DNA of 64,000 bases, from positions 3,937,501-4,001,500 of the forward strand of contig NZ_CP106679.1 in the NCBI RefSeq assembly GCF_025502585.1, in the 5' to 3' direction. This document shows positions 51,076 to 64,000 of the stretch, in pieces. Each line of letters opens with the position of its first letter. Within the stretch, counting starts at the first letter, position 1. The notes beneath the pieces were generated by a model that worked only from the letters and a program-made list of their open reading frames with translations, searched no databases and was not told the DNA's origin. Source of the stretch: Reichenbachiella agarivorans. GTDB taxonomy: Bacteria > Bacteroidota > Bacteroidia > Cytophagales > Cyclobacteriaceae. The position numbers were made by a program, and so were the translations under genes.

Positions 51076-51149
51076 GGAGCGGTAGTTCAGCTGGTTAGAA
51101 TGCCTGCCTGTCACGCAGGAGGTCGCGGGTTCGAGTCCCGTCCGCTCCG
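51076..51149 (+). tRNA. tRNA-Asp (anticodon GUC)
   Basis: A 74-nt tRNA without encoded CCA. Acceptor stem GGAGCGG (51076-51082) pairs with CCGCTCC (51142-51148); discriminator G at 51149. The anticodon stem CCTGC/GCAGG encloses CTGTCAC with GTC at 51110-51112. The T-arm GGGTTCGAGTCCC is canonical. Confidence 0.98.
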
Positions 51150-51150
51150 C

Positions 51151-51187
51151 AAAAGCTTGCTAGTTTACACTAGCAAGCTTTTTTATT
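51151..51187 (+). terminator. Terminator after tRNA-Asp
   Basis: AAAAGCTTGCTAGT (51151-51164) pairs with ACTAGCAAGCTTTT (51169-51182) around TTAC, followed by TTATTTTA. It starts one base after the tRNA. Confidence 0.85.
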
Positions 51188-51575: not shown

Positions 51576-51923
51576 TTAAGCCAACTGAAAAATTTTATCC
51601 ATCGGCACCCACTTTTGTCCATCTTCTGCCCAAGGCAGTGGGATTTGAAACTGATCCATTAGCCTCTCCCACTCTTGTACCTTGGGGTTATTTACATCCA
51701 TTTCGGCCTTCTTTTTGGGATCGAAAGTTTCGTCCACCTCCATAATCATGAAGAGACGGTTGCCAGTACAGTAGATTTGCATATCGCTAATACCCGCTGA
51801 CTTGATACTATCAGTGATTTCTGGCCATGCTTGGCCAGACCAATGGTACTCTTTGTATTTTTTGATTAGTGCTGGATCATCCTTCAGATCCAGCGCCAAA
51901 CAAAAGCGTTTGTTTTGATTCAT
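51576..51923 (-). CDS. rhaM: L-rhamnose/L-fucose-type mutarotase
   Basis: A 115-residue mutarotase of the RhaM (PF05336) type, which interconverts alpha and beta anomers of L-sugars. Visible motifs: CLALDLKDDPALIKKYKEYH, the active-site histidine in KEYHWSG, and IYCTGNRLFMIMEVDETF with the final WVPMDKIFQL. Length matches RhaM. As last gene of the seven-gene L-sugar operon it most likely serves L-galactose (or L-fucose) rather than L-rhamnose; one base separates it from the permease gene. Confidence 0.85.
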   Translation of the reverse strand: MNQNKRFCLALDLKDDPALIKKYKEYHWSGQAWPEITDSIKSAGISDMQIYCTGNRLFMIMEVDETFDPKKKAEMDVNNPKVQEWERLMDQFQIPLPWAEDGQKWVPMDKIFQLA

Positions 51924-51924
51924 A

Positions 51925-53238
51925 TTAGTTATTTTCTTTTGAGAAATTGCCGTACATGGCTACTACTGCCAGACATACCATAGGGACAACAAAGGCAAAA
52001 CTGATCTCTGGTATCCAGCCCAAAACATCGACATCTGCGAGTCCAGACCCTCCCATGTCCAGAATCGTACCGAATAGCAGCGGGCCAAATGACCCACCTA
52101 CGATAGCCATCACCAAGCCAGCAGACCCTATTTTCGCTTCGTCTCCCATGTCCTTGAGCGCAATGCCGTAGATCGTAGGAAACATGATCGACATAAACAT
52201 AGAGGTCAACACCAGTGCATAGAGGCCTGGCATACCACCTGCCAGTATGGTTACTAACAAACACACTACGCCTGCTATACCGAACATATTGAGCAGTTGA
52301 GCTGGGACAACTCGCTTCATCAAAGCTGTACCAATCCACCTACCTAGCAGAAACAAGATCATAGCGGCCATGTTGTACCAGGTGGCGGTAATTTGCTCAT
52401 GTGCTGGCAAGGTGGTATTCAAGTGATCAACATATTGATAGATATATGTCCAGCACATAATCTGCGCTCCTACGTAAAACATCTGCGCTACCACACCGAG
52501 CACATAGCGTTTGTTTTGAAACAGGGTGGAAAATGACTCTTTGAGTCCCATACGCTGTTGCTCTCCATGTGCAGGAATTTTAGTTAAGATCACAATAATT
52601 AGTATCACAAGGACAACTACGCCTAAGCCTATATAAGGCAAGCTAATCACCCCCAGATCGTTGATTCTAATGGCAGCTTTGTCCGCTGAACTTAGCAGAT
52701 CGTAACTCTCTGGCGTATAGACAGAGGAACGCAATGATTCCATCACCAATACCTGCGCCATTAGCATCCCCGTAAGCGAGCCTATCGGATTAAATGCCTG
52801 TGCCAAGTTGAGTCTGCGTGTGGCGGTTTCTTTATCTCCCAAAGCCAACACGAGTGGATTGGACGTTGTCTCTAAAAAAGAAAGCCCACAAGTAATGACC
52901 CAAAGTGAGATCAGATAAAAATCAAAACTTTCTAGCTGTGCTGCGGGATAGAACAAAAATGCTCCTACAGCATAAAAAGAAAGCCCTAGAATGATCCCTG
53001 CTTTGTAGCTAAATTTTCGGATGAACAATGCCGCTGGCAAGGCCATGAAGAAATAGCCGAAGTAAAATGCGAACTGCACCAATGAGGCATGCGTATTGGA
53101 TAACTCTGGCATCACTTTTTTGAAGGCCGACACCATCGGATTGGTCAGATCATTGGCGATCCCCCACAGCGCAAATAGCGAAGTAATAATTATAAAAGCG
53201 AATAGGTAATCTCTCGATACTACGGGTATCTTTTTCAT
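51925..53238 (-). CDS. fucP: FucP-type sugar:H+ symporter
   Basis: A 437-residue MFS permease of the FHS family with about 12 helices. N-terminal FALWGIANDLTNPMVSAFKK is typical of FucP (FFLWGFANDLTNP), then SLVQFAFYFGYFFMALPAA and SFLETTSNPLVLALG, quoted as separate motifs. It imports L-fucose-like sugars together with protons across the inner membrane. Given the LgoD/UxaB/UxaA context, L-galactose is the proposed cargo (inference). 28 bp after the SDR gene; one base before the mutarotase gene. Confidence 0.88.
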   Translation of the reverse strand: MKKIPVVSRDYLFAFIIITSLFALWGIANDLTNPMVSAFKKVMPELSNTHASLVQFAFYFGYFFMALPAALFIRKFSYKAGIILGLSFYAVGAFLFYPAAQLESFDFYLISLWVITCGLSFLETTSNPLVLALGDKETATRRLNLAQAFNPIGSLTGMLMAQVLVMESLRSSVYTPESYDLLSSADKAAIRINDLGVISLPYIGLGVVVLVILIIVILTKIPAHGEQQRMGLKESFSTLFQNKRYVLGVVAQMFYVGAQIMCWTYIYQYVDHLNTTLPAHEQITATWYNMAAMILFLLGRWIGTALMKRVVPAQLLNMFGIAGVVCLLVTILAGGMPGLYALVLTSMFMSIMFPTIYGIALKDMGDEAKIGSAGLVMAIVGGSFGPLLFGTILDMGGSGLADVDVLGWIPEISFAFVVPMVCLAVVAMYGNFSKENN

Positions 53239-53266
53239 ATCATTTAGTCTATCAGTGAAATTTCAA

Positions 53267-54061
53267 TTAATGTGCAGACAGCAAAGCCCTATCCAAGTGT
53301 ACATAGCCACCATCCACAAATATGTGCTGACCAGTCGTATGAGAAGAGAGCGCCGATATGGTAAATAATGTCTGGTTTGCGATTTCAAAAGGCTCTGTCA
53401 TCCGATTGCCCAACGGCACCTTCTCTTTGATCGAGTTTAATTTTTGTTCACCATCTTTGAGGGTCTTGATCCAATCTTCATATGCAGGTGTATAGCTCTC
53501 AGCAATTATGAGGCAATTGACCCTGATACCATACTGGATTAGATCCACTGCCCACTCGCGAGTTAGGGCCAACACACCGCCCTTCGAAGCTGCATACCCA
53601 GATGTCCCTCCCTGACCTGTGTAACCCACCTTGGAACCTATGTTTAGGATGTTTCCCTTCGACTCTTTCAGCCATGGGAGACAGTGTTTGGTCATCAAGA
53701 AGTAACTGATCATGTTGAGCTTAAGCGAATCCATAAAGGCTTCCAGAGGAGCTTCCAAACTTACCCCATCATTGACCCCTACATTGTTGATCAGTACATC
53801 GATGCGGCCGTACTTATCAACGACCTTCTTGATAGCAGTTTCAATCTGCTCAGGTATGGTCAGATCGGTCGCTACAAAAAGAGCATCCACCCCTTTGTCC
53901 TGTAGTTCTTTCACATAAGCCTCGCCACGCATATTACGGTCTACGATGGCTGGGATTGCTCCCTCGGTCACCAGTTGACTCAAGATAGTCTCACCAATGC
54001 TGCCCTTCATACCAGCGCCACCTGTGATCACTACTACTTTATCTTTTAATTTCAAATCCAT
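53267..54061 (-). CDS. SDR sugar 1-dehydrogenase (L-fucose/L-galactose dehydrogenase-like)
   Basis: A 264-residue short-chain dehydrogenase. Nucleotide-binding TGGAGMKGSIGE and NNVG motifs and the catalytic Ser-Tyr-Lys set (NIGSKVGYTG ... GYAASKGG) are intact. Its glycine-rich loop is longer than the common TGxxxGIG. The best family match by recall is bacterial L-fucose dehydrogenase; in this operon it would oxidise L-galactose at C1 to the lactone. That assignment is inference because SDR substrates cannot be told from motif alone. Located between lactonase (10 bp upstream) and permease. Confidence 0.78.
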   Translation of the reverse strand: MDLKLKDKVVVITGGAGMKGSIGETILSQLVTEGAIPAIVDRNMRGEAYVKELQDKGVDALFVATDLTIPEQIETAIKKVVDKYGRIDVLINNVGVNDGVSLEAPLEAFMDSLKLNMISYFLMTKHCLPWLKESKGNILNIGSKVGYTGQGGTSGYAASKGGVLALTREWAVDLIQYGIRVNCLIIAESYTPAYEDWIKTLKDGEQKLNSIKEKVPLGNRMTEPFEIANQTLFTISALSSHTTGQHIFVDGGYVHLDRALLSAH

Positions 54062-54071
54062 TTTTCGTGCT

Positions 54072-54902
54072 TCATTTTATACCGTAAAATCTCACGGCGT
54101 TGTCTCCATAAATTTTATCTTGATCAGCCTGAGAATATCCTTCAAAGTACCGATCAACCAGTGACTTCACCTTGTCGTAAGATCCTCCCAGCAAACATAC
54201 TGGCCAGTCCGATCCATACATGAGTCGATCTACACCAAAAGCCTCAACGACCACATCGAGATAAGGCACAAAATCCTCATATTTCCATCCCGTCCAATCA
54301 GCTTCAGTCACCATGCCTGAGAGTTTGCACATCACATTTTCATGAGCTGCCATCTTTCGCATATAATCGATCCATTCATCGATCTTTCCTTCTTTGATAT
54401 ATGGCTTTGCAATGTGATCGATCACAAAGGGTTGCTCAGGATGTCGCTCAATCGTTTCGAGTGCCGCCTTCATCTGCGTAGGGAAAATCAGAATATCATA
54501 AGTCAAACCATGATCCTTCAACTGTGTCAATCCTCTCTGGAAATTAGCTCCGAGCATAAATTCAGGGTCAGGCTCTTCCTGCACAACATGTCGTACGCCA
54601 ACGAATTTTTTGTTTTTGGCATAGTGAGCCAATCGTTCTGCCACATTTTCGGCTTGCAAATCAACCCACCCTACTACCGCTTTCACGTAATCATACTTAA
54701 GTGCCAAGTCCAGCAAAAACTCCGTCTCAGCCTCCGTTTGATCGGCTTGTACTGCTACTGTACCATCCAGTCGATTTTGCTGGAGTAAATCCCTAAGATC
54801 GGAAGGAAAAAAATCGTCTTGGATCACAGACATACTGTCATCAATCCAGGCATGTTTGGTCGGATCATACTTCCAAAAATGCTGATGCGAATCTATTCTC
54901 AT
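54072..54902 (-). CDS. Sugar lactonase of the amidohydrolase (fuconolactonase, COG3618) family
   Basis: A 276-residue metal-dependent amidohydrolase. The N-terminal IDSHQHFWKYDP holds the HxH pair; VIDHIAKPYIK carries another metal histidine, and YGSDWPVCLLGG the catalytic aspartate near residue 230. These features match L-fuconolactonase/L-rhamnono-lactonase enzymes. It would open L-galactono-lactone to L-galactonate in the proposed pathway. Its start overlaps the uxaB stop by 4 bp (ATGA). Confidence 0.85.
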   Translation of the reverse strand: MRIDSHQHFWKYDPTKHAWIDDSMSVIQDDFFPSDLRDLLQQNRLDGTVAVQADQTEAETEFLLDLALKYDYVKAVVGWVDLQAENVAERLAHYAKNKKFVGVRHVVQEEPDPEFMLGANFQRGLTQLKDHGLTYDILIFPTQMKAALETIERHPEQPFVIDHIAKPYIKEGKIDEWIDYMRKMAAHENVMCKLSGMVTEADWTGWKYEDFVPYLDVVVEAFGVDRLMYGSDWPVCLLGGSYDKVKSLVDRYFEGYSQADQDKIYGDNAVRFYGIK

Positions 54903-56338
54903 TGGGTAATCAGTTTTTTGATGTTTCCGTCCAATATAACCGTGAGATTAGCAGCCACTGCGTCTGTCAAACCTGTCACAACAGTCAAATCCTGTCCCCA
55001 GAAGTCAGTCTGGCTAAGGAATGCTTTGACTACTTCGCCTATCGAAGCAGCATCGCTGTAGCTTGCCCATGCCTGGTCTGCAAAATCGATGACGGTCTGG
55101 TCATCGTTGCGCTGGATCACTTTGCCTGCCACTTCTCCTCTATAAAAGGCGATGAGTGCAGCCAGTGAAACGCACAACTTCTCTGGCAATTTCCCTTTTC
55201 GCTCGACATATTCAAGGAGTGAAGGCAACACACGTGTCTTGAATTTGGAAACCGAATTGAGAGAGATACTCATAAGGGCATGCATAAGATAGGGATTCCT
55301 AAAACGATCCAGTACATCGCATGCAAAGGACTTCAATTCCTCCTCTGGCAGATCGAGTGTTGGGCATATTTCTTCAAAGATCGCCTGACGTATCCATGGA
55401 CCGAAAACCTCGTCCTCCACGGATTCTCGCACATATTCGATCCCATAGAGGTATGCCACAGGCACCATCGTAGTGTGGGCACCGTTGAGGATACGTACTT
55501 TTCTGGTGCGATAAGGCTCCATATTGTCTGTAAATATTACATTCAAATTACAAGCCTCCGCTGGGAATTCCTTCTGAATCTGCTCAGGCCCCTCGATCAC
55601 CCAAAGGTGAAACTTCTCGCCCTCTACAACCAACTGATCCTGATAACCCAACTCCTCAGTGATCGCTTCCATCTTGTCTTTCGGATAGCCTGGTACTATA
55701 CGATCCACCAATGTATTGGCAAAAATGTTATGCTTTTCTACCCAATCCTTAAATTCCACTGACAGGCCCCACTCTTCTGCATATTGCAAAATGATACGCT
55801 TCAAATTGTCCCCATTGCGGTCTATCAGTTCGCAGGGGATGAAAATCAAGCCCTTGTCAGTTGCACCATCAAAAGTCTCATATCTGCGATGAAGCAGCAG
55901 TGTCACCTTGGCAGGAAAACTACTCGGCGGTGCATCGTTCATGCTATTGTTGTCGTGATAGGCGATACCTGCCTCAGTCGTATTGGACAAGACAAATCTC
56001 AAGTCAGGGCTTTCGGCCAAAGCCATGTATTCTTCCCACTGAGTATAGGGATCCAGTCCACGCTGGATACAATCGACCACTTCGTGCTCACTGACTGCCT
56101 GACCGTCCTTGATACCATTGATATATACAGTGTACAATCCATCTTGCTCATTGAGCATCTGGATTAGTCCTTTGTCGATGGGTTGTACGGCCACCACTCC
56201 TGCATCAAAGTCTACCTTTTGGTTCATCTGATGAATCATCCAGTCGGCAAAGGCACGGAGAAAATTCCCTTCTCCGAATTGAAGGATGCGCTCGGTATAG
56301 GTTTGGGTATTATGTGTTAATCTATTTAGTTTTTTCAT
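54899..56338 (-). CDS. uxaB: Tagaturonate reductase (altronate oxidoreductase)
   Basis: A 479-residue mannitol-dehydrogenase superfamily enzyme. The N-terminal ERILQFGEGNFLRAFADWMIHQMN and SNTTEAGIAY fit UxaB; NGAHTTMVPVAYLYG carries the catalytic region. It interconverts D-tagaturonate and D-altronate with NADH. Length matches UxaB (about 480). In the pathway it reduces the tagaturonate formed from L-galactonate. It lies 15 bp after the uxaA gene and overlaps the lactonase gene by 4 bp. Confidence 0.9.
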   Translation of the reverse strand: MKKLNRLTHNTQTYTERILQFGEGNFLRAFADWMIHQMNQKVDFDAGVVAVQPIDKGLIQMLNEQDGLYTVYINGIKDGQAVSEHEVVDCIQRGLDPYTQWEEYMALAESPDLRFVLSNTTEAGIAYHDNNSMNDAPPSSFPAKVTLLLHRRYETFDGATDKGLIFIPCELIDRNGDNLKRIILQYAEEWGLSVEFKDWVEKHNIFANTLVDRIVPGYPKDKMEAITEELGYQDQLVVEGEKFHLWVIEGPEQIQKEFPAEACNLNVIFTDNMEPYRTRKVRILNGAHTTMVPVAYLYGIEYVRESVEDEVFGPWIRQAIFEEICPTLDLPEEELKSFACDVLDRFRNPYLMHALMSISLNSVSKFKTRVLPSLLEYVERKGKLPEKLCVSLAALIAFYRGEVAGKVIQRNDDQTVIDFADQAWASYSDAASIGEVVKAFLSQTDFWGQDLTVVTGLTDAVAANLTVILDGNIKKLITQ

Positions 56339-56353
56339 TGTGTTGATTGTTGA

Positions 56354-58006
56354 CTAGAGTGAGATATCTCGTTTCCATGGGATAAAGTCATCGTGCCCAA
56401 GGCGTACAGCGTGCGGTACCACTTCACCACTGGCCACTTGTATCAAGTACTCAAACAACTCTTCTCCCTTGGACTCTATGGTATCCTCTCCACTGATCAC
56501 CGTGCCCGCATTGACATCTATCACGTCTTTCATTTTCTCAGACAACTTATTGTTACTGGACAGCTTCACTACCGGTACGACCGGATTACCAGTAGGTGTA
56601 CCCAGTCCAGTGGTGAATACGATCAGGTTGCAACCTGATCCTGCTAGTCCTGTGGTACTTTCTACATCATTACCTGGCGTGCAAAGCAAATTTAGACCTG
56701 GTTTGGTGACGGATTCTGTATAATCCAAAACCTCAGTGATAGGTGAAGTACCGCCTTTCTTAGCCGCACCTGCAGACTTCATAGCATCAGTGATCAGACC
56801 ATCCTTGATATTACCTGGGGATGGATTACTTTCAAACCCAGATCCCACTGCGATGGCCTTATCTCCATAAGCCTTCATCAGAGCGGAAAATTTCTCTGCG
56901 TCATGATCTTCTACGCATCTATCGATCAGTTCCTGCTCTACTCCATTGAGTTCTGGGAACTCACTTAGCACCGGCGAACCGCCCAATGCTGCCAATATAT
57001 CTGAGGCATAGCCCAATGCTGGATTGGCAGAGATACCAGAGAAGCCGTCTGAACCTCCACATTCCAGTCCGAGAACCAACTTGCTCAGTGGAGCAGGTTT
57101 CCTTTCTATTTTATTGGCCTCTTGTAGCCCCAAGAAGGTCATCTTCACTGCACCTTCTATAAACGAACGCTCACTCTTGCTCTGCTGCTGCTCCAAAATG
57201 TGTAGCGGCTTGGAGAAATTCGGGTCTTTCTTCTTGATGGCATTTTCTAGCACCTCTATTTGGGCATTTTGACAACCCAGACTCAGTACAGTGGCTCCTG
57301 CCACGTTAGGGTTGGTCAGATACCCTGCCAGCAAGTTGCAGAGTACTTCTGAGTCGGCACGTGTACCTCCACATCCTCCTTCATGACGTAGGATTTTGAT
57401 CCCGTCTACATTAGGAAATACACGGTTCTTCACTATTTCTTCCTGACTCTTGATGATTTCGGCACGCAGGATTTCTTCCTCTCCCCCTCCATTGCGCATC
57501 AATTTGACCAACTGCTCGGTATTGACTATATAGTCCTTTTCAGTTTGATAACCGAGAGATTCTGTCAAGGCAACTTTAAGTACGTCGAGATTGCGGTTTT
57601 CGCAAAAGGTAAGTGCAAATACAATCCAGTAATTGCCTGTACCAACTTTGCCATCTGCACGATGGTAACCATTGAAGGTACGTCCCTTCCATTTGCTCAC
57701 ATCTGGACCGATCCAATGTGGCTTTTCCCTCTTACCAGAGTATTCAGCAGAGGCATGCTTCATGTTTTGAACGGTAATGGCTCTCCCTTGCTCAATAGCA
57801 GTGGTAGCTCTACCGACCAACACCCCGTACATGTAAACTGGATCCCCGTCAGCCAGATCATGAAGAGCAAATTTGTGTTTGGCTTGAATATCTTCTTTAA
57901 GTACCAGTTGAGTACCTGCAAGCAATATTTCTTCCCCATTTTTTAAATCCTGAATCGCTACGATCAAGTTGTCACGAGGATCTATACGTACATATCTATT
58001 TGACAT
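56354..58006 (-). CDS. uxaA: Altronate dehydratase
   Basis: A 550-residue iron-dependent dehydratase converting D-altronate to 2-keto-3-deoxy-D-gluconate. The N-terminal SAF domain (residues about 1-85, YVRIDPRDNLIVAIQDLKNG) and the large UxaA C-terminal domain (GYHRADGKVGTGNYWIV, GCGGTRAD, LGLECGGSDGFSGISANP, GNIKDGLITDAMKS, TPGNDVESTTGLAGSGCN) are complete. Cysteines in these motifs are plausible metal ligands. 12 bp after the LgoD-like gene. Confidence 0.93.
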   Translation of the reverse strand: MSNRYVRIDPRDNLIVAIQDLKNGEEILLAGTQLVLKEDIQAKHKFALHDLADGDPVYMYGVLVGRATTAIEQGRAITVQNMKHASAEYSGKREKPHWIGPDVSKWKGRTFNGYHRADGKVGTGNYWIVFALTFCENRNLDVLKVALTESLGYQTEKDYIVNTEQLVKLMRNGGGEEEILRAEIIKSQEEIVKNRVFPNVDGIKILRHEGGCGGTRADSEVLCNLLAGYLTNPNVAGATVLSLGCQNAQIEVLENAIKKKDPNFSKPLHILEQQQSKSERSFIEGAVKMTFLGLQEANKIERKPAPLSKLVLGLECGGSDGFSGISANPALGYASDILAALGGSPVLSEFPELNGVEQELIDRCVEDHDAEKFSALMKAYGDKAIAVGSGFESNPSPGNIKDGLITDAMKSAGAAKKGGTSPITEVLDYTESVTKPGLNLLCTPGNDVESTTGLAGSGCNLIVFTTGLGTPTGNPVVPVVKLSSNNKLSEKMKDVIDVNAGTVISGEDTIESKGEELFEYLIQVASGEVVPHAVRLGHDDFIPWKRDISL

Positions 58007-58018
58007 ATCTCCTTACTC

Positions 58019-59032
58019 TTAAAAATTAACCATTGCTTTGATGACACCCGTCTCAGGCTTGAGCCAGCTATCGAAGTTTGCGATCATGTCGCCGTACTCC
58101 ACACTATGCGTAATGAAAGACTTCGTAGGGAACTTGCCACTACTCAGCACCTTCACTACATACTCGAAATCCTCAGTTGTAGCATTTCTACTACACATGA
58201 TGGTTGTCTCTTTTGCGTGGATTTTGGGATGAACGAAAGTCAATTCCCCTTTAGATAATCCCACCAGTACATACCTACCTCCATGCGCCATATAGTCTGG
58301 ACCTGATTCCAATGCTCCTTTGTGTCCTGTCGCATCAAATACTGCAGTAGCTAGATCACCACCTGTGATCTCAGCCACTTTCTCTACAGGGTTATTGGTC
58401 ACATTCACTACGTGATCTACGCCGATTTCTTCCTTGGCATATTTCAGTCTGTCGTCATTCATGTCTATGGCGATCACCTGAGCACCAGCGATCTGTGCGA
58501 GCTTCATCATTCCGATTCCTATGGGTCCACATCCGATCACCACTACTGTTTCACCAGGCTGTACATTCGCTCTTCGAATGGCATGTGCACCTATAGCCAG
58601 TGGCTCTACAATCGCCATTTCATCGTCATTAAGTTCTCCTGCTGGTAGCAAGATATTGGCTGGCACAGTGATCTGTTCCTGCATGCCGCCATCGCCATGC
58701 ACACCCAATACACTGATATTGGAACAACAATTGGTCTTGCCAGACCTACATGCCACACACTCTCCACAACTCACGTAGGGCATCACGATCACGCCATCTC
58801 CTGCTTTGATACCTTGAGGATTGTCATCAATCTCCAACACGCTAGAGGCTAACTCGTGTCCTAAAATCCTAGGATAAGTAAAGAAGGCCTGATTGCCTGC
58901 ATAGGCATGCAGATCGGTTCCACAGATCCCTACTTTATTGATCTTGAGCAATGCTTCACCCCTCTTACGCACAGGTGTCTCTTTTTCTTTGAGCTCAAAC
59001 TTACCTGGCTCTGTGCACACGATGTATTTCAT
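58019..59032 (-). CDS. lgoD: Zinc-type L-galactonate 5-dehydrogenase (LgoD/YjjN-like)
   Basis: A 337-residue medium-chain dehydrogenase. Catalytic zinc ligands lie in GICGTDLHAYAGNQAFFTYPRILGHE (C and HE), and structural-zinc cysteines in CGECVACRSGKTNCC. The cofactor motif is VIGCGPIGIG. From recall, not alignment, these stretches, ISVLGVHGDGGMQEQ, and GGRYVLVGLSKGELTF with KETTIMCSRNAT are very close to E. coli YjjN/LgoD, which oxidises L-galactonate to D-tagaturonate, exactly the substrate needed by the following UxaB. First gene of the operon; start at 59032 (MKYIVCTEPGKFELK) preferred over the longer frame to 59128. Confidence 0.72.
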   Translation of the reverse strand: MKYIVCTEPGKFELKEKETPVRKRGEALLKINKVGICGTDLHAYAGNQAFFTYPRILGHELASSVLEIDDNPQGIKAGDGVIVMPYVSCGECVACRSGKTNCCSNISVLGVHGDGGMQEQITVPANILLPAGELNDDEMAIVEPLAIGAHAIRRANVQPGETVVVIGCGPIGIGMMKLAQIAGAQVIAIDMNDDRLKYAKEEIGVDHVVNVTNNPVEKVAEITGGDLATAVFDATGHKGALESGPDYMAHGGRYVLVGLSKGELTFVHPKIHAKETTIMCSRNATTEDFEYVVKVLSSGKFPTKSFITHSVEYGDMIANFDSWLKPETGVIKAMVNF

Positions 59033-59098
59033 ATCTAATTCTGTTTCTTCTTTGATAGTAAAACACAAAAATTCGGGATCAAGAGGAAAAGCAGGTGA

Positions 59099-59110
59099 GC
59101 AAACGCTTGC
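59099..59110 (+). promoter_or_regulatory. Candidate LacI-type operator 1
   Basis: GCAAACGCTTGC (GCAA / TTGC ends) lies in the divergent gap between the LgoD-like gene and the GH16 gene. An 11-of-12 match, GCAAACGCATGC, occurs on the minus strand at 61711-61722 before the GH2 gene. LacI-family operators commonly have this kind of CG-centred inverted repeat. The regulator gene is 1.1 kb away. Confidence 0.5.
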
Positions 59111-59233
59111 GCAAAAAATGGAAGACAACCCTGTTGTCAGACAGCTACAGAATAGAGAAACTTTCAGAATAAATAGAATACTTGACTGCTATCGAGATGA
59201 TTCAACTTTGGGTTTTAATAAAACCATAAGCGC

Positions 59234-60124
59234 ATGAACTATCGAAAAAAACTATTCGCCCTTTTACTATTGGTACTGCCCTGGCTATCGCTATACGCTC
59301 AGGACGAAGACGACAACAGCAACCCTCCGACCAAACCTGCTGGCTACTATACTGACACGGTCGATCTTGCCTCTGCCCCTCTGAGAGTGAACCAACAGTA
59401 TCCCTTATCGGATCAAAGCAATACAGATGGGTGGAAACTCAACAAGGAACTTTCGGATGAATTTGAAGGACGAAAATTGGATACCGACCGATGGCATCCC
59501 AACAATCCCGGATGGAAGGGACGTCAACCTACTTACTTTCATGGCTCGAACGTCAGCTTGAGAAAAGGAGAGTTGGTTTTAAAAATCAACCAACATGGCG
59601 ATGAAGAACTACCCGAAGGATACACCCACACGGCAGGATTCATCAAATCCAAAAAGCGGTTAAAATATGGCTATCTGGAAGCCGAGATGAAACTGATGGA
59701 CGCACCATGGGTATCAGGCTTTTGGGTCACGAATGTGAGCAAAGACTGGTGGACAGAAATTGACATCTGTGAAAACGACCCTGGTGTGATTGAAAACTCC
59801 CACGATCTTCACTCCAACATACACGTATTTCGTGCCCCACCAGAGCATGGGGACGTCAAGGAGCATTTCATGCGCTCGAAAACCTACTACCTACCCATAG
59901 AGCTCCAACAAGACTATCATGTCTGGGGACTGGAATGGAACGAAGAAGTGATCAGGTTCTACATAGATGGCGTGCTATTCAGAGAAGCCAAAAACACCCA
60001 CTGGCACCAGCCACTAGAAATCAACATCAACAATGAATCCAACAAATGGTTTGGCGCATTGCCCGATGAGCGAACAGATAGAGAGTTTCATATCAAGTAC
60101 ATGCGAGTCTGGACGAAAGAATAG
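59234..60124 (+). CDS. Secreted GH16 glycoside hydrolase (agarase/porphyranase-like)
   Basis: A 296-residue exported endo-hydrolase. Signal peptide to about residue 22 (LYAQ). The GH16 catalytic signature EIDICE at 175-180 has nucleophile Glu175, Asp177 and acid/base Glu180 in the E-x-D-x-x-E spacing typical of agarases, porphyranases, carrageenases and laminarinases. GRQPTYFHGSNVSLRKGEL, GYLEAEMKLMDAPWVSGFW and WGLEWNEEVIRFYIDGVL match the jelly-roll core. Neighbourhood of L-galactose genes favours a porphyran or agar substrate, but subfamily needs phylogeny. Divergent from the operon with a 201-bp gap. Confidence 0.82.
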   Translation: MNYRKKLFALLLLVLPWLSLYAQDEDDNSNPPTKPAGYYTDTVDLASAPLRVNQQYPLSDQSNTDGWKLNKELSDEFEGRKLDTDRWHPNNPGWKGRQPTYFHGSNVSLRKGELVLKINQHGDEELPEGYTHTAGFIKSKKRLKYGYLEAEMKLMDAPWVSGFWVTNVSKDWWTEIDICENDPGVIENSHDLHSNIHVFRAPPEHGDVKEHFMRSKTYYLPIELQQDYHVWGLEWNEEVIRFYIDGVLFREAKNTHWHQPLEININNESNKWFGALPDERTDREFHIKYMRVWTKE

Positions 60125-60190
60125 GCTGATTGAAAACTGAAGGGGGCATTTCATAAAATTTCCTTCCAAAGAGAACAAATGAGGTAGATG

Positions 60191-61222
60191 TCATCCTATT
60201 TTATAAAACCGAGCATCACCATGCACAGTTGAATCCCTTGCAATTAACTGATTGGGCAACACAATAGAAGAAACAGGCTGTGAGGGATTTCTTAACTCTT
60301 CGAGTAAAATCCCCGCTGCCCTTTGCCCCATTAGAAAAGCTGGCTGCTGTACTGAGGTAAGACGGGGAGTCATATAGCTTGCCACTGGCTCATCTGCGAA
60401 ACCCACGACGGCTATTTCCTCCGGCACTTTTTTGCCCAGCCTCTGAATCACCTGCACTGCATCGAATGCTAAATAGTCACTATAAGCCAGTACTCCATCT
60501 ATTTTATCCTCCCTGATAAGACTCTCTAATTTCACATGCCAATCCTCATTATTGGTAGACAATACCCAATGGTCTGGATGGGGCAAGCCACGTTTTTTCA
60601 TTGCTTCTTTGTATCCTGTGAGGCGGGTAAATGTAGTAGACAAACGATCTGGACCAGAGAGATATACTACCCGACTAGCCCCTGATGCTACCAAATGATC
60701 AATAGCTAAACGACTACCGTCGAAATCGTCGCTGATTACATAGGAAGCATCTAAATCCTCACACATCCTGTCTATAAAGACCAAAGGAATCTCCTCTTCC
60801 AAGAGCGACAAATAGTGCTCAAAATTGTCAGTCTCGCGGGCATAGGAAGCCAACACACCATCCACATGCATTTCACTCAGTACCTGTACAATCTCCTTTT
60901 CCTTCTCCACACTTCCCTCATGCACATTGATGATCAAATGATACTCGCTCTGATTGATTACTTGATTGATACCTGATAGCACCTTGGCAAAATAGTGATG
61001 AGTAAACTCTGGCAGGATCAGTCCTATCAATCCAGATTTTTTCTTCTGTAGATTTCGGGCGAAAGGGTTGGGTCGATAGCCCCACTTCTCAGCAAATGCC
61101 ATAATGGATGCCTTGGTTTTCTTGCTTACCCTCCCTTGATTGCTCAAAGCTCGTGACACAGTCGATGGAGACACTCCCAGTGCCTTGGCTATGTCTTTGA
61201 TATTGATGCGTCTTTTATGCAT
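60191..61222 (-). CDS. LacI-family transcriptional regulator
   Basis: A 343-residue regulator. The N-terminal helix-turn-helix (INIKDIAKALGVSPSTVSRALSN) and hinge (NPFARNLQKKKSGLIGLILP) precede a periplasmic-binding-protein-like effector domain (about 65-335). It probably controls the flanking operon, GH16 and GH2 genes in response to a sugar, with the GCAAACGCWTGC motif as candidate operator (inference). The start at 61222 gives the standard HTH N-terminus; a longer frame begins at 61246. Convergent with the GH16 gene across 66 bp. Confidence 0.92.
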   Translation of the reverse strand: MHKRRINIKDIAKALGVSPSTVSRALSNQGRVSKKTKASIMAFAEKWGYRPNPFARNLQKKKSGLIGLILPEFTHHYFAKVLSGINQVINQSEYHLIINVHEGSVEKEKEIVQVLSEMHVDGVLASYARETDNFEHYLSLLEEEIPLVFIDRMCEDLDASYVISDDFDGSRLAIDHLVASGASRVVYLSGPDRLSTTFTRLTGYKEAMKKRGLPHPDHWVLSTNNEDWHVKLESLIREDKIDGVLAYSDYLAFDAVQVIQRLGKKVPEEIAVVGFADEPVASYMTPRLTSVQQPAFLMGQRAAGILLEELRNPSQPVSSIVLPNQLIARDSTVHGDARFYKIG

Positions 61223-61406
61223 GTTGGATTTGAGATTTGGGATCACTAAATCAGCGTATCAGCACTTTATACTTTCCTCTCCCATCACAAAGATAAACAG
61301 TCCCTGTCCATTCCAGCTAGTTCAACTGACAAATGCTCGCTATTAGCAACAAACTCAACACTGCTATGAATGTTCAGGGTCTGGATAGGGATTACAGGTT
61401 CTTTAA

Positions 61407-61604
61407 CTATAACCAAATGGTATCGTACGGCGCACATGAGGTTTTCTCTAGCTTTTCAAAACTCTCATGACCGATCTGATAGCCGATCTTCCTGCTGGGT
61501 AGATCATCTTCCAAATAGCGAATGACCGCAACCAGATGCACATAGTCGTACCAGCCCTTGATGCTCCAAGCTGCCATATCCACATCTCGCATGACTCTCC
61601 CCAT
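61407..61604 (-). CDS. Orphan 65-residue frame, possibly a gene remnant
   Basis: An ATG-initiated frame on the minus strand encodes a protein-like sequence (AWSIKGWYDYVHLVAVIRYL ... RKIGYQIGHESFEKLEKT). No homologue is recognised. Amino acid composition is plausible for a helical globular fragment, but there is no strong ribosome site and no partner, so it may be a remnant of a longer gene or chance. Confidence 0.25.
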   Translation of the reverse strand: MGRVMRDVDMAAWSIKGWYDYVHLVAVIRYLEDDLPSRKIGYQIGHESFEKLEKTSCAPYDTIWL

Positions 61605-61704
61605 ACAAAATAAGCATCCACATCAGCATATCAAAAATTGGCACCAAGTAGAGCAAATAACAATTCCCCCCTCATATTCAACACAATCCTTTCCCATGAC
61701 ACCC

Positions 61705-61722
61705 GCAAATGCATGCGTTTGC
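61705..61722 (-). promoter_or_regulatory. Candidate LacI-type operator 2 (GH2 promoter)
   Basis: GCAAATGCATGCGTTTGC is an inverted repeat (GCAAA / TTTGC). Read on the minus strand, its 3' part (61711-61722) is GCAAACGCATGC, an 11/12 match to operator 1. It lies 27 bp before the -7-like TAGTTTTG of the GH2 gene, a position compatible with repression or activation. Confidence 0.5.
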
Positions 61723-61781
61723 AACCTGCTTGCATTTCTAAATGGTTTTAGTTTTGAGAAAACAATTATTGAGATTAAATT

Positions 61782-64000
61782 ATGGTACTGAGGACTAAAA
61801 ACTTATTATTTCTCTGCGTGGTCTGTCTTCTGATAGCCTGTGGTGAAAAAGAACAAAACAAATACCTGCCCGATCAGGCATTCAACGAAGAGTGGCTATT
61901 CAAAAAAGCCGAACTAGAAGCACAAAACTTCGATTTTGACGACCACAACTGGGATGCCGTCACACTGCCCCACGACTGGGCGATCGCAGGCCCCTTCGAC
62001 CGCCAGCACAACGCCCGTACTGGAGGTCTACCCGTGACTGGCATGGGTTGGTATCGCAAACACTTCGACGTACCAGCAGATATGAACAACAAACGTATCT
62101 CCATCGAATTTGACGGAGCGATGAACGATGCCTACGTCTGGGTCAACGGCCAGTTGGTTGGCAATCGCCCATTTGGCTATATCGGTTTTGAATTTGACAT
62201 CACGGATCATATCCGATTCGGAAAAGAAAACGTAATCGCCGTACGCCTCAACCCCAAAGATCTGAGCTCTAGATGGTATCCTGGAGCAGGTCTATACAGA
62301 AATGTTAGGATCAAATACAACGAAACTACACATATCGCGCAGTGGGGTACCTACATCACCACGCCAGAGATCAGCGATGAGCAAGCACACATCAAGATTG
62401 AAACCAAAATAAATGGCTCAAAAGCTACTGAGGCACAACTCAGAACTACGATCATCGACGCTCAAGATCAGACCATCGCCACACAAACTCAGGCTATCAC
62501 AACAGCCATCATAGATACAGAATTGAGCGTCAAAAGCCCCAATCGCTGGCAGCCTGATGCCCCATATCTTTATACGCTAGTGTCTGAAGTGCTAGATGAT
62601 GACCAGGTGATCGATCGATACGAGTCCCCATTCGGCATACGTACCATCGAAGTGACCGTCAATGACGGTCTGCTGGTCAACGGCGAGCGTCTGCAGCTCA
62701 ACGGCGTGTGTATGCACCACGATCTCGGCCCACTGGGTGCTGCGGTCAACTACAGAGCAACCGAGCGACAAGTCGAAATCCTCCAAAATATGGGGGTCAA
62801 TGCCATTCGTACTAGCCACAACCCTCCATCGCCTGAGCTACTCGATATCTGCGACAAAAAAGGTGTCGTGGTGATCGTGGAAGCCTTCGATGAGTGGCAG
62901 ATGGGCAAAGTAGAAAATGGTTACAACCTCCTTTTCGACGAATGGCACGAACGTGATCTAAGAGATATGATCAAACGTGACCGCAACCACCCCTCTGTCG
63001 TCATGTGGAGCATTGGCAATGAAATCCTAGAGCAGTCGCAAAAAGACGGTTGGAAACTTACCAAGCACCTCTCAGATATTTGCCACGACGAAGACCCTAG
63101 TCGTAAAACCACCATAGGGTTCAACTACTATCCTGCACCCTACAAGAACCAGTTGGCGTTTCAAGTCGACGTAGTAGGGCTCAACTACTGGCCTCTACAG
63201 CTCAAAGAGTTAAGAGAACAGTACCCTGATATGATCCTATATGGCTCAGAAACCTCCTCCCAAACGAGTAGCCGAGGAATCTACCACCTACCTATCCAAG
63301 CTGATGTAGTCAAAGAAACAGGTCAAGTTTCCAGCTATGACGGGACCGTGGGACCTCCGTGGGCATACCCACCAGATGTAGAGTTTGAGCAACAAGAGCT
63401 CAATCCGCATTCGCTGGGCGAGTTTATGTGGACGGGTTTTGACTATCTGGGAGAGCCTACTCCCTATGGCGGTCGTGACAACTCTACCAATGGCTACTGG
63501 AATGACGACTGGCCGTCTCACTCGTCTTACTTTGCGCCGATAGATCTCACTGGCCTGCCCAAGGATCGCTACTATCTCTACCAGAGCCAGTGGACAGAAA
63601 CGCCGATGGTACATGTTTTGCCTCACTGGAACTGGGAAGGAAAAGAGGGAGAAGAAATTCCTATCTATGCCTACACCAATGCTCAGGAAGTAGAGCTCTT
63701 CGTCAACGGCAAGTCCATGGGTAAAAAAGTGAAAGGAAAAGACAAAACACCTATTCCCGCCGAATTTCACTTTTTTGAGAAAGGAACCTATATGAGTCCA
63801 TACAGACTGAGCTGGTCTGTTCCCTACGAGCCAGGCACATTGGAAGTAGTGGCTTACAAAGACGGCAAAGAAGTCGCCAGAAAGTCTGTCAACACGGCTG
63901 GAACCGCTGCCCAAATCCAGCTGAGTCCTGATCGCCAGGAGATCACAGCCGACGGCAAAGATTTGTCATTCATCACGGTGAGTGTTAGAGACGAAGAAGG
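61782..64000 (+). CDS. GH2 family lipoprotein (beta-galactosidase-like), cut by window edge
   Basis: A glycoside hydrolase family 2 enzyme of at least 739 residues. The ATG at 61782 gives a signal peptide and lipobox (LLIAC) for outer-membrane or periplasmic lipidation. The sugar-binding domain shows GWYRKHFDVPADM and NGQLVGNRPFGYIGFEFDIT. In the catalytic barrel the acid/base Glu lies in WSIGNEILEQ and the nucleophile Glu in LYGSETSS. Family activity includes beta-galactosidase; with the GH16 and L-galactose operon a role in cleaving galactose from agar/porphyran oligosaccharides is likely (inference). The C-terminal end lies outside the window. Confidence 0.9.
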   Translation, partial: MVLRTKNLLFLCVVCLLIACGEKEQNKYLPDQAFNEEWLFKKAELEAQNFDFDDHNWDAVTLPHDWAIAGPFDRQHNARTGGLPVTGMGWYRKHFDVPADMNNKRISIEFDGAMNDAYVWVNGQLVGNRPFGYIGFEFDITDHIRFGKENVIAVRLNPKDLSSRWYPGAGLYRNVRIKYNETTHIAQWGTYITTPEISDEQAHIKIETKINGSKATEAQLRTTIIDAQDQTIATQTQAITTAIIDTELSVKSPNRWQPDAPYLYTLVSEVLDDDQVIDRYESPFGIRTIEVTVNDGLLVNGERLQLNGVCMHHDLGPLGAAVNYRATERQVEILQNMGVNAIRTSHNPPSPELLDICDKKGVVVIVEAFDEWQMGKVENGYNLLFDEWHERDLRDMIKRDRNHPSVVMWSIGNEILEQSQKDGWKLTKHLSDICHDEDPSRKTTIGFNYYPAPYKNQLAFQVDVVGLNYWPLQLKELREQYPDMILYGSETSSQTSSRGIYHLPIQADVVKETGQVSSYDGTVGPPWAYPPDVEFEQQELNPHSLGEFMWTGFDYLGEPTPYGGRDNSTNGYWNDDWPSHSSYFAPIDLTGLPKDRYYLYQSQWTETPMVHVLPHWNWEGKEGEEIPIYAYTNAQEVELFVNGKSMGKKVKGKDKTPIPAEFHFFEKGTYMSPYRLSWSVPYEPGTLEVVAYKDGKEVARKSVNTAGTAAQIQLSPDRQEITADGKDLSFITVSVRDEE

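Follow-up and report, generated by a model that had tools for sequence, protein, structure and literature searches.

A putative L-galactose operon with a short-chain dehydrogenase as predicted first enzyme in a porphyran-type locus of Reichenbachiella agarivorans

Bacterial use of L-galactose was reportedly described by Hobbs et al. 2014 for Bacteroides vulgatus (BVU_0219/BVU_0222), and the first enzyme, BVU_0219, is said to be of the aldo-keto reductase (AKR) type. According to the available excerpts on this species, an L-galactose and an L-galactonate dehydrogenase convert L-galactose to L-galactonate and further to D-tagaturonate. For Luteolibacter LG18, the route to 2-keto-3-deoxy-6-phosphogluconate (KDPG) was shown by assays and gene disruption, and the genes for L-galactose dehydrogenase, D-altronate dehydratase, D-tagaturonate reductase and L-galactonate dehydrogenase lie in one cluster, lguABCDEF (PMC12632266; this paper, PMC12316285 and PMC5507952 are cited from excerpts throughout). 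In Halomonas and Chromohalobacter, lgoD, uxaA and uxaB of the lgo/lfo loci are found beside L-fucose and L-fuconate genes (PMC5507952). LgoD, UxaB and UxaA of Escherichia coli carry out the same chemistry from L-galactonate onward. Porphyran and agar are major red-algal galactans; the published accounts of their breakdown follow, in the excerpts, D-galactose and 3,6-anhydro-L-galactose, and the main text of PMC12316285 contains no word beginning with 'galactonate' or 'tagaturonate'. Here, a seven-gene operon of Reichenbachiella agarivorans is described, which very probably serves L-galactose catabolism as the monosaccharide end of a porphyran-degrading locus. It is part of a stretch of 64,000 nucleotides, termed the window (C1:3937501-4001500 of the single-contig 4.47-Mb genome). 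Coordinates with the prefix C1 refer to the whole genome and those given with a locus number (L) to that locus; all others refer to the window. Gene content, order, relationships and conservation were computed, and we infer every substrate and reaction.

The seven-gene operon is real: seven co-directional open reading frames (ORFs) on the minus strand span 51576-59032 in the ORF list of the window. Read from the promoter end, the genes are LgoD-like dehydrogenase, UxaA, UxaB, lactonase, short-chain dehydrogenase/reductase (SDR), FucP and mutarotase, with spacings, beginning at LgoD, of 12, 15, -4 (overlap), 10, 28 and 1 bp. A preliminary description made from the letters of the window had proposed a single-strand operon of seven genes with gaps of 1-28 bp or 4-bp overlaps, as is now measured; its family calls for the seven genes agree with the profile matches, and the GH16, LacI and GH2 genes it named do adjoin. 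Its statement that the genes stand in order of reaction was wrong, since LgoD is the highest-coordinate gene and does not lie between lactonase and UxaB. LgoD was first listed as a longer frame of 369 amino acids (aa) with a TTG start; the start is likely the ATG at 59032, giving 337 aa. Several LgoD searches and the cysteine numbering below used a form of 339 aa, two residues longer. On the far (mutarotase) side, the operon is bounded by a tRNA-Asp gene at 51076-51150, and a terminator-like hairpin is located at 51151-51182.

By family, a sugar 1-dehydrogenase, a lactonase, an L-galactonate 5-dehydrogenase, a tagaturonate reductase and an altronate dehydratase are encoded together. In the proposed pathway, L-galactose would be released by porphyranases, sulfatases and alpha-L-galactosidases. 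It would be imported by the FucP-type sugar:H+ symporter (51925..53238, minus strand like all genes of the operon; TIGR00885, 487 bits vs. a cut-off of 280), a predicted L-galactose importer, and the right anomer would be supplied by the RhaM-family sugar mutarotase, encoded by the last operon gene (51576..51923; PF05336, E 7.5e-31). The SDR-family sugar 1-dehydrogenase (53267..54061), a predicted L-galactose dehydrogenase, would oxidise C1 to yield L-galactonolactone, which the amidohydrolase-family sugar lactonase (54072..54902; Amidohydro_2), a predicted L-galactono-lactonase, would open to L-galactonate. The LgoD-like protein (58019..59032; ADH_N and ADH_zinc_N), a predicted Zn-dependent L-galactonate 5-dehydrogenase, would oxidise C5 to give D-tagaturonate; the tagaturonate reductase UxaB (54899..56338; NCBIfam NF002969, 687 bits vs. 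a cut-off of 359) would reduce C5 of this product to form D-altronate, and the UxaA-family protein (56354..58006; SAF, GD_AH_second and GD_AH_C), a predicted altronate dehydratase, would dehydrate the latter to 2-keto-3-deoxygluconate (KDG). Finally, KDG kinase (KdgK) and KDPG aldolase (Eda) would lead to pyruvate and glyceraldehyde-3-phosphate. The preliminary description had called the pathway complete, which goes too far: the operon stops at KDG, and the kinase and aldolase genes, which it had proposed to seek beyond the window, are found 1.57 Mb away at C1:2416202-2419178 (L009).

The profile matches support UxaB and FucP strongly and LgoD and UxaA in a general way; they are ambiguous for the lactonase and the SDR, whose nearest sugar models carry L-fucose names. 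Assigning substrates by NCBIfam names alone was dropped, as the names did not settle them; the specificities of FucP, mutarotase and lactonase are suggested by the neighbourhood. The window LgoD is 41% identical to LgoD of E. coli K-12 over 337 columns, and its best solved match is RspB (4ilk, E 1.4e-50). It has cysteines at positions 39, 91, 94, 97 and 105, which presumably have zinc-binding roles. No model named LgoD occurs among the 25 NCBIfam models matched. At E ≤ 0.001, the solved relatives of the lactonase come down to a single sequence, that of 4dlf/4dlm/4dnm/4do7 (E 1e-61). The best solved relative of the SDR is 4gkb/4glo/4gvx (E 3.7e-75); we take 4gkb to be an L-fucose dehydrogenase.

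For comparison with relatives, the best 80 of 170 LgoD relatives were taken as named loci. They were chosen by LgoD similarity, so that all counts describe this neighbourhood; the nearest are Reichenbachiella versicolor and R. agariperforans with 89% identity. Five loci with less than 8.9 kb downstream of LgoD were dropped and 75 were counted. Downstream of LgoD, a lactonase is present in 69, FucP in 56, UxaA in 55, SDR in 55, mutarotase in 51 and UxaB in 49 loci. The whole set of UxaA, UxaB, lactonase, SDR or AKR, FucP and mutarotase recurs in 43/75 loci, and the association therefore exceeds chance. KdgK and Eda are found within the run in 15/75 loci. A fucose FAH gene was found in the run in none of the 75 loci, and a weak match to 2-keto-3-deoxyfuconate (KDF) dehydrogenase (30-31%) in three.

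In 7/75 loci, an AKR takes the place of the SDR between lactonase and FucP, and no locus of the 75 has both enzymes. The best solved match of this AKR is an L-galactose dehydrogenase (E 6e-21), with IolS close behind (E 1e-19), so that the assignment is carried by position more than by similarity. The SDR or AKR state was mapped on the LgoD tree for the 63 of the 80 loci having one or the other; six changes are needed, of which at least four are forced by starred branches, and both operon types occur within each of the genera Wenyingzhuangia, Tamlana, Polaribacter, Lutibacter and Mariniflexile. One slot is thus used by two unrelated dehydrogenases, one of L-galactose type, and this is the best evidence for the SDR as an L-galactose dehydrogenase.

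The relationships of the SDR were examined in a tree of 93 rows, comprising 92 matches of ≥ 45% identity (all past a floor of 200 aa) and the 4gkb chain, computed with the 'quick' method without bootstrap. Rows were labelled by same-strand genes within 7 kb, with LgoD and KDF dehydrogenase accepted at ≥ 45%. A branch with a support of 100 in the SH-like approximate likelihood ratio test (SH-aLRT) divides the tree into 65 and 28 rows. The window SDR belongs to the 65-row clade, in which 56 rows are labelled with LgoD, nine are unlabelled and none is labelled with FAH or KDF dehydrogenase. The 28-row side holds all 18 FAH/KDF-labelled rows, the 4gkb chain and the paralogue from the fucose operon of the same genome (see below). 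The nine unlabelled rows are explained individually: in seven (L110, L115, L116, L120, L139, L143, L147) LgoD is farther away with a KdgK-Eda pair inserted, in L053 it is divergent, and L204 has an LgoD-like gene at 41%, just under the threshold; thus, all 65 rows are near an LgoD-like gene. The fixed differences that accompany the division include an inserted glycine (G17) in the cofactor loop in 65/65 rows vs. a gap in 28/28, and serine for glycine at position 21 in 65/65 vs. 0/28; further residues fixed between the clades are at positions 119, 121, 125, 142, 186 and 189 of the window SDR. A phylogeny of the SDR had been named beforehand as a check; the window SDR groups with the LgoD-associated clade and falls outside the group formed by 4gkb and the dehydrogenases with fucose-branch neighbours. 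When LgoD-labelled and FAH/KDF-labelled rows are mapped on the trees (FastTree except for SDR), two changes are needed for SDR, one for UxaA, three for lactonase, four for FucP and two for mutarotase. In the UxaA tree, the one change parts 59 LgoD-associated from six fucose-associated rows (100*); lactonase and FucP, with three and four changes, are less neatly divided between the pathways.

A full L-fucose operon is encoded elsewhere in the genome, at C1:342000-361999 (L008), with genes for a UxaA paralogue, an SDR, an FAH-type hydrolase, a lactonase, an SDR matching the L-fucose dehydrogenase model (424 bits vs. a cut-off of 300), FucP, a mutarotase and an LldD-type protein. The five genes common to both operons, SDR, lactonase, FucP, mutarotase and UxaA, are 51-56% identical (SDR 52%, FucP 53%, UxaA 56%). 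The fucose operon differs by its additional SDR, FAH-type hydrolase and LldD-type gene and is without LgoD and UxaB; conversely, KDF dehydrogenase and FAH-type hydrolase are absent from the window operon. Judged from these sequences, the two operons are sisters, and in that of the window LgoD and UxaB replace the fucose branch. PF07881, the N-terminal domain model of L-fucose isomerase, has no match anywhere in the genome, and together with the full separate operon this indicates that fucose is already served. At L008 10061-11674, a UxaA-family protein is encoded where an L-fuconate dehydratase would be expected.

Several observations weigh against a role in L-galactose catabolism or against its exclusiveness. 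The window SDR passes the NCBIfam cut-off for L-fucose dehydrogenase (FucosDh, 350.4 vs. 300 bits). LgoD reaches no NCBIfam cut-off, the nearest model being PRK10083 with 209 vs. 376 bits, and the lactonase stays under the cut-off of 400 for the L-fucono-1,5-lactonase NF052480 with 293.7 bits; its paralogue in the fucose operon is likewise below (282.1 bits). The run is without UxaA in 20/75, without UxaB in 26/75 and with neither SDR nor AKR in 13/75 loci. LgoD is also a neighbour of six rows in the fucose-type SDR clade, three labelled 'LgoD' (L054, L055, L074) and three 'both' (L056, L060, L073), so that the two pathways can share a type of entry enzyme. L144, a member of the 65-row clade, has FAH and KDF-dehydrogenase relatives (58%) a few genes off on the opposite strand, where the labels do not see them. 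Downstream in L150, L155, L156 and L160, SDRs match the KDF dehydrogenase weakly (30-33%). Genome G068 of the same genus has two matches to the porphyranase domain PF18206 and no LgoD match at 1e-70. Finally, for HSD17B14, a characterised human SDR L-fucose dehydrogenase, L-galactose is only a side substrate (4.1 vs. 29.6 µmol/min/mg at 2 mM).

Some of these points would fit a dual operon, in which SDR, lactonase, FucP and mutarotase serve both L-fucose and L-galactose and only L-galactonate enters LgoD, UxaB and UxaA. The match of the SDR to the L-fucose dehydrogenase model, the side activity of a known enzyme of this kind, the mixed loci L056, L060 and L073, the last of which joins both branches in one run, and the placement of lgoD, uxaA and uxaB with L-fuconate genes in Halomonas and Chromohalobacter (PMC5507952) favour it; the separate full L-fucose operon and the complete lack of same-strand fucose-branch labels among the 65 rows of the window SDR clade speak against it, and we regard it as improbable. 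L056, L060 and L073 combine LgoD with the L-fucose-branch genes for FAH and KDF dehydrogenase; L073 4269-14645 also has UxaB, UxaA, KdgK and an Eda-like gene, a content that resembles a dual L-fucose/L-galactose operon. The run in L144 consists of LgoD, lactonase, SDR, FucP and mutarotase.

The preliminary description had argued for L-galactose on the ground that L-fuconate, having no C6 hydroxyl, cannot feed UxaB. This does not hold: the position reduced by the UxaB-type LguC is C-5 (PMC12632266), where L-fuconate does carry a hydroxyl. Its use of UxaB and UxaA as markers of L-galactose fails for UxaA on its own, since a UxaA paralogue sits in the L-fucose operon of the same genome, and UxaA homologues are therefore poor substrate markers. 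The C6 argument becomes stronger in corrected form, because KDG kinase acts on C-6 (PMC12632266) and needs this hydroxyl, and KdgK and Eda lie inside 15/75 sister operons. Among 40 family loci, KdgK is also found within the run of L044, with an Eda-like gene within that of L073, and beside the runs of L045 and L056. The same evidence bears on the reading as an L-fucose or D-arabinose operon whose route would be unusual in that LgoD and UxaB take 6-deoxy substrates. That the nearest models are FucP, FucDH and fuconolactonase, that a real fucose operon has a UxaA paralogue and that the C5 hydroxyl of L-fuconate makes the chemistry possible would agree with it. As 6-deoxy-KDG is without the C6 hydroxyl phosphorylated by KDG kinase (PMC12632266), the KdgK and Eda genes of the sister operons contradict it, as do the AKR swap and the porphyran neighbourhood; it is very unlikely, and L-fucose as sole substrate was rejected on these grounds. 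The L-galactose assignment of the preliminary description itself is supported by the separate fucose operon, the SDR clade, the AKR swap, KdgK and Eda in sister operons, and the porphyran setting.

In the genome, KdgK (C1:2418141-2419178; 74% identical to KdgK within the L044 run) and Eda (C1:2416202-2416795, the one PF01081 match) cluster with a pyrophosphate (PPi)-type phosphofructokinase. The trio recurs in L152, inside the LgoD run, and in L162, next to it. The phosphofructokinase may belong to KDG metabolism, since Luteolibacter has a PPi-using KDG kinase (PMC12632266).

UxaB and UxaA are D-galacturonate enzymes, and the genome has a UxaC; a hexuronate operon borrowing UxaA and UxaB was also considered. 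The sole UxaC match is at C1:555185, away from the window, a further uxaB-uxaA pair is present at C1:2634465-2637536 (its UxaA is 58% identical to that of the window, the fucose-operon UxaA 56%), and D-galacturonate requires no sugar dehydrogenase, lactonase or LgoD. A galacturonate operon was rejected for these reasons and is, again, a very unlikely explanation.

L-galactose as the substrate is consistent with the genes around the operon. Upstream of LgoD and divergent from it, a GH16 gene (59234..60124, plus strand) is followed by a LacI-family regulator (60191..61246, minus strand; PF00356 and Peripla_BP_3) and a GH2 beta-galactosidase of 819 aa (61782..64000, plus strand, continuing to genome position 4001741; GH2 domains). 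The 739 aa of the GH2 inside the window score 827 bits against NF041463 GalB and do not reach the cut-off of 900. The best solved match of the GH16 is BpGH16C (8EP4/8EW1, E 7e-105), an endo-6-O-methyl-beta-porphyranase of GH16_14 (PMC12316285). The GH16 has a Gly aligned with the Thr of PorB (3juu), in place of the Ser/Thr of PorA/PorB; this residue has been tied to room for the methyl group (PMC12316285). The GH16 is therefore predicted from its sequence to be a 6-O-methyl-porphyranase of GH16_14 type. Past the window follow the remainder of the GH2, two genes with the porphyranase domains PF18206/PF18040, CBM6, four sulfatases and one GH43. The two porphyranase-domain genes are taken to be GH86. 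Judged from this gene content, the neighbourhood is a porphyran-degrading locus, in line with the red-algal galactan locus proposed beforehand.

The genome has five PF18206 matches. Three GH29 genes 97-111 kb from the operon (C1:3882883, 4093439 and 4107825) match the exo-alpha-L-galactosidase BpGH29 (7SNK, 7LJJ) with E 3e-85, 5e-128 and 4e-133, and the best solved fucosidase more weakly with E 2e-63, 9e-90 and 1.5e-80. A fourth GH29 is found near the fucose operon (C1:370578) and a fifth, fragmentary PF01120 match at C1:3884555 in the profile search. Among 17 family genomes whose LgoD reaches ≥ 60% identity, selected by hand in the match table, five have PF18206, vs. 6/179 others (one-sided p = 0.0009, with kinship uncontrolled); without the own genome, 4/16 remain (p = 0.0048). 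At the thresholds applied, 15/80 named loci have a relative of the GH16, GH86-type, GH2 or sulfatase genes no more than 10 kb from LgoD, and the linkage of the named loci to porphyran genes is modest. Next to the porphyranase-domain genes, L004 16966-17979 and L005 2670-15382 encode a Kelch-repeat protein, a CBM6 protein of 646 aa without a Pfam catalytic domain, the four sulfatases and the GH43. The sulfatase at L005 7187-8686, with relatives (61-62%) at most 10 kb from LgoD in 7/80 named loci and one of 63% in L046, is a candidate L-galactose-6-sulfate sulfatase.

The LacI-family protein probably represses the operon. A candidate operator (59096..59115, no strand assigned) is located upstream of LgoD, with the core GCAAACGCTTGC at 59099-59110. 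R. versicolor (L083) and R. agariperforans (L084) share this site with the window, in each case within TTTGCGCAA(S)CGTTTGCTCA. With one mismatch, the core also occurs upstream of GH2 at 61711-61722. The core pattern is found in 4/80 named upstream regions vs. a mean of 0 in 100 resampled sets, and in 2/31 loci with a divergent LacI gene (absent from 29). A general operator for all relatives was rejected, the core being absent from 76/80 upstream regions. In the window, the 12-mer with ≤ 2 mismatches has 8 matches vs. 3.6 expected, and 5/100 shuffles reach 8; since this is not clearly above the shuffles, the candidate counts by its conservation only. Promoter-like sites in the window are not in excess (19 vs. 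21.2 expected) and terminator-like sites hardly so (11 vs. 8.5 expected).

Further arrangements were seen among the LgoD relatives. L078 and L049 have more distant AKR relatives (48-50%) near LgoD-like genes, which suggests that the AKR-type pathway extends beyond the seven loci with the swap. Nine Arenibacter loci (L097, L104, L106, L109, L122, L130, L133, L142, L157) have LgoD, UxaA and lactonase without UxaB, SDR and FucP, followed by apparent exopolysaccharide genes in L097 and L104; the Arenibacter loci L118 and L121 have LgoD, SDR, FucP and mutarotase, as if the operon were split.

Taken together, we consider it likely that the SDR clade is a second, non-homologous L-galactose dehydrogenase, derived from L-fucose dehydrogenase; its glycine-rich cofactor loop has gained three residues, and residues that follow the catalytic tyrosine differ. 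This SDR would be the commoner first enzyme of the L-galactose operon (55 vs. 7 of 75 loci) in marine Bacteroidota, often degraders of red-algal galactans, with at least four exchanges with the AKR. If this is true, marine Bacteroidota gain an L-galactose route and a marker operon for L-galactose use, the automatic label 'L-fucose dehydrogenase' is misleading for the window SDR and should be corrected, and the alternation of SDR and AKR provides a clear natural example of non-orthologous replacement.

Compared with the described systems, the E. coli route starts at L-galactonate and not at L-galactose; its lgoD adjoins the regulator lgoR, and no sugar dehydrogenase or lactonase is annotated in the 11 kb around it. 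The Halomonas and Chromohalobacter loci belong to Gammaproteobacteria and import L-fuconate and L-galactonate by TRAP transporters, and the excerpts of PMC5507952 give no link to algal galactans. In Luteolibacter, LguA clusters with GALDH_ARATH and BVU_0219, whereas the window uses an SDR; the cluster includes KDPG aldolase and forms a dual L-glucose/L-galactose system (PMC12632266), and no word beginning with 'lactonase' occurs in the text of that paper. The first enzyme of B. vulgatus likewise clusters with plant L-galactose dehydrogenase (PMC12632266, excerpt), again in contrast to the SDR of the window. Unlike that pathway as described, the window operon has its own UxaB, UxaA and FucP. 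In the open-licence literature searched, most subscription journals being outside the search, no description of an SDR-type L-galactose operon was found. The pathway from L-galactose to KDG itself is already known from B. vulgatus, Luteolibacter and, for the L-galactonate half, E. coli; what appears new is that an SDR serves as first enzyme and that marine Bacteroidota use it widely.

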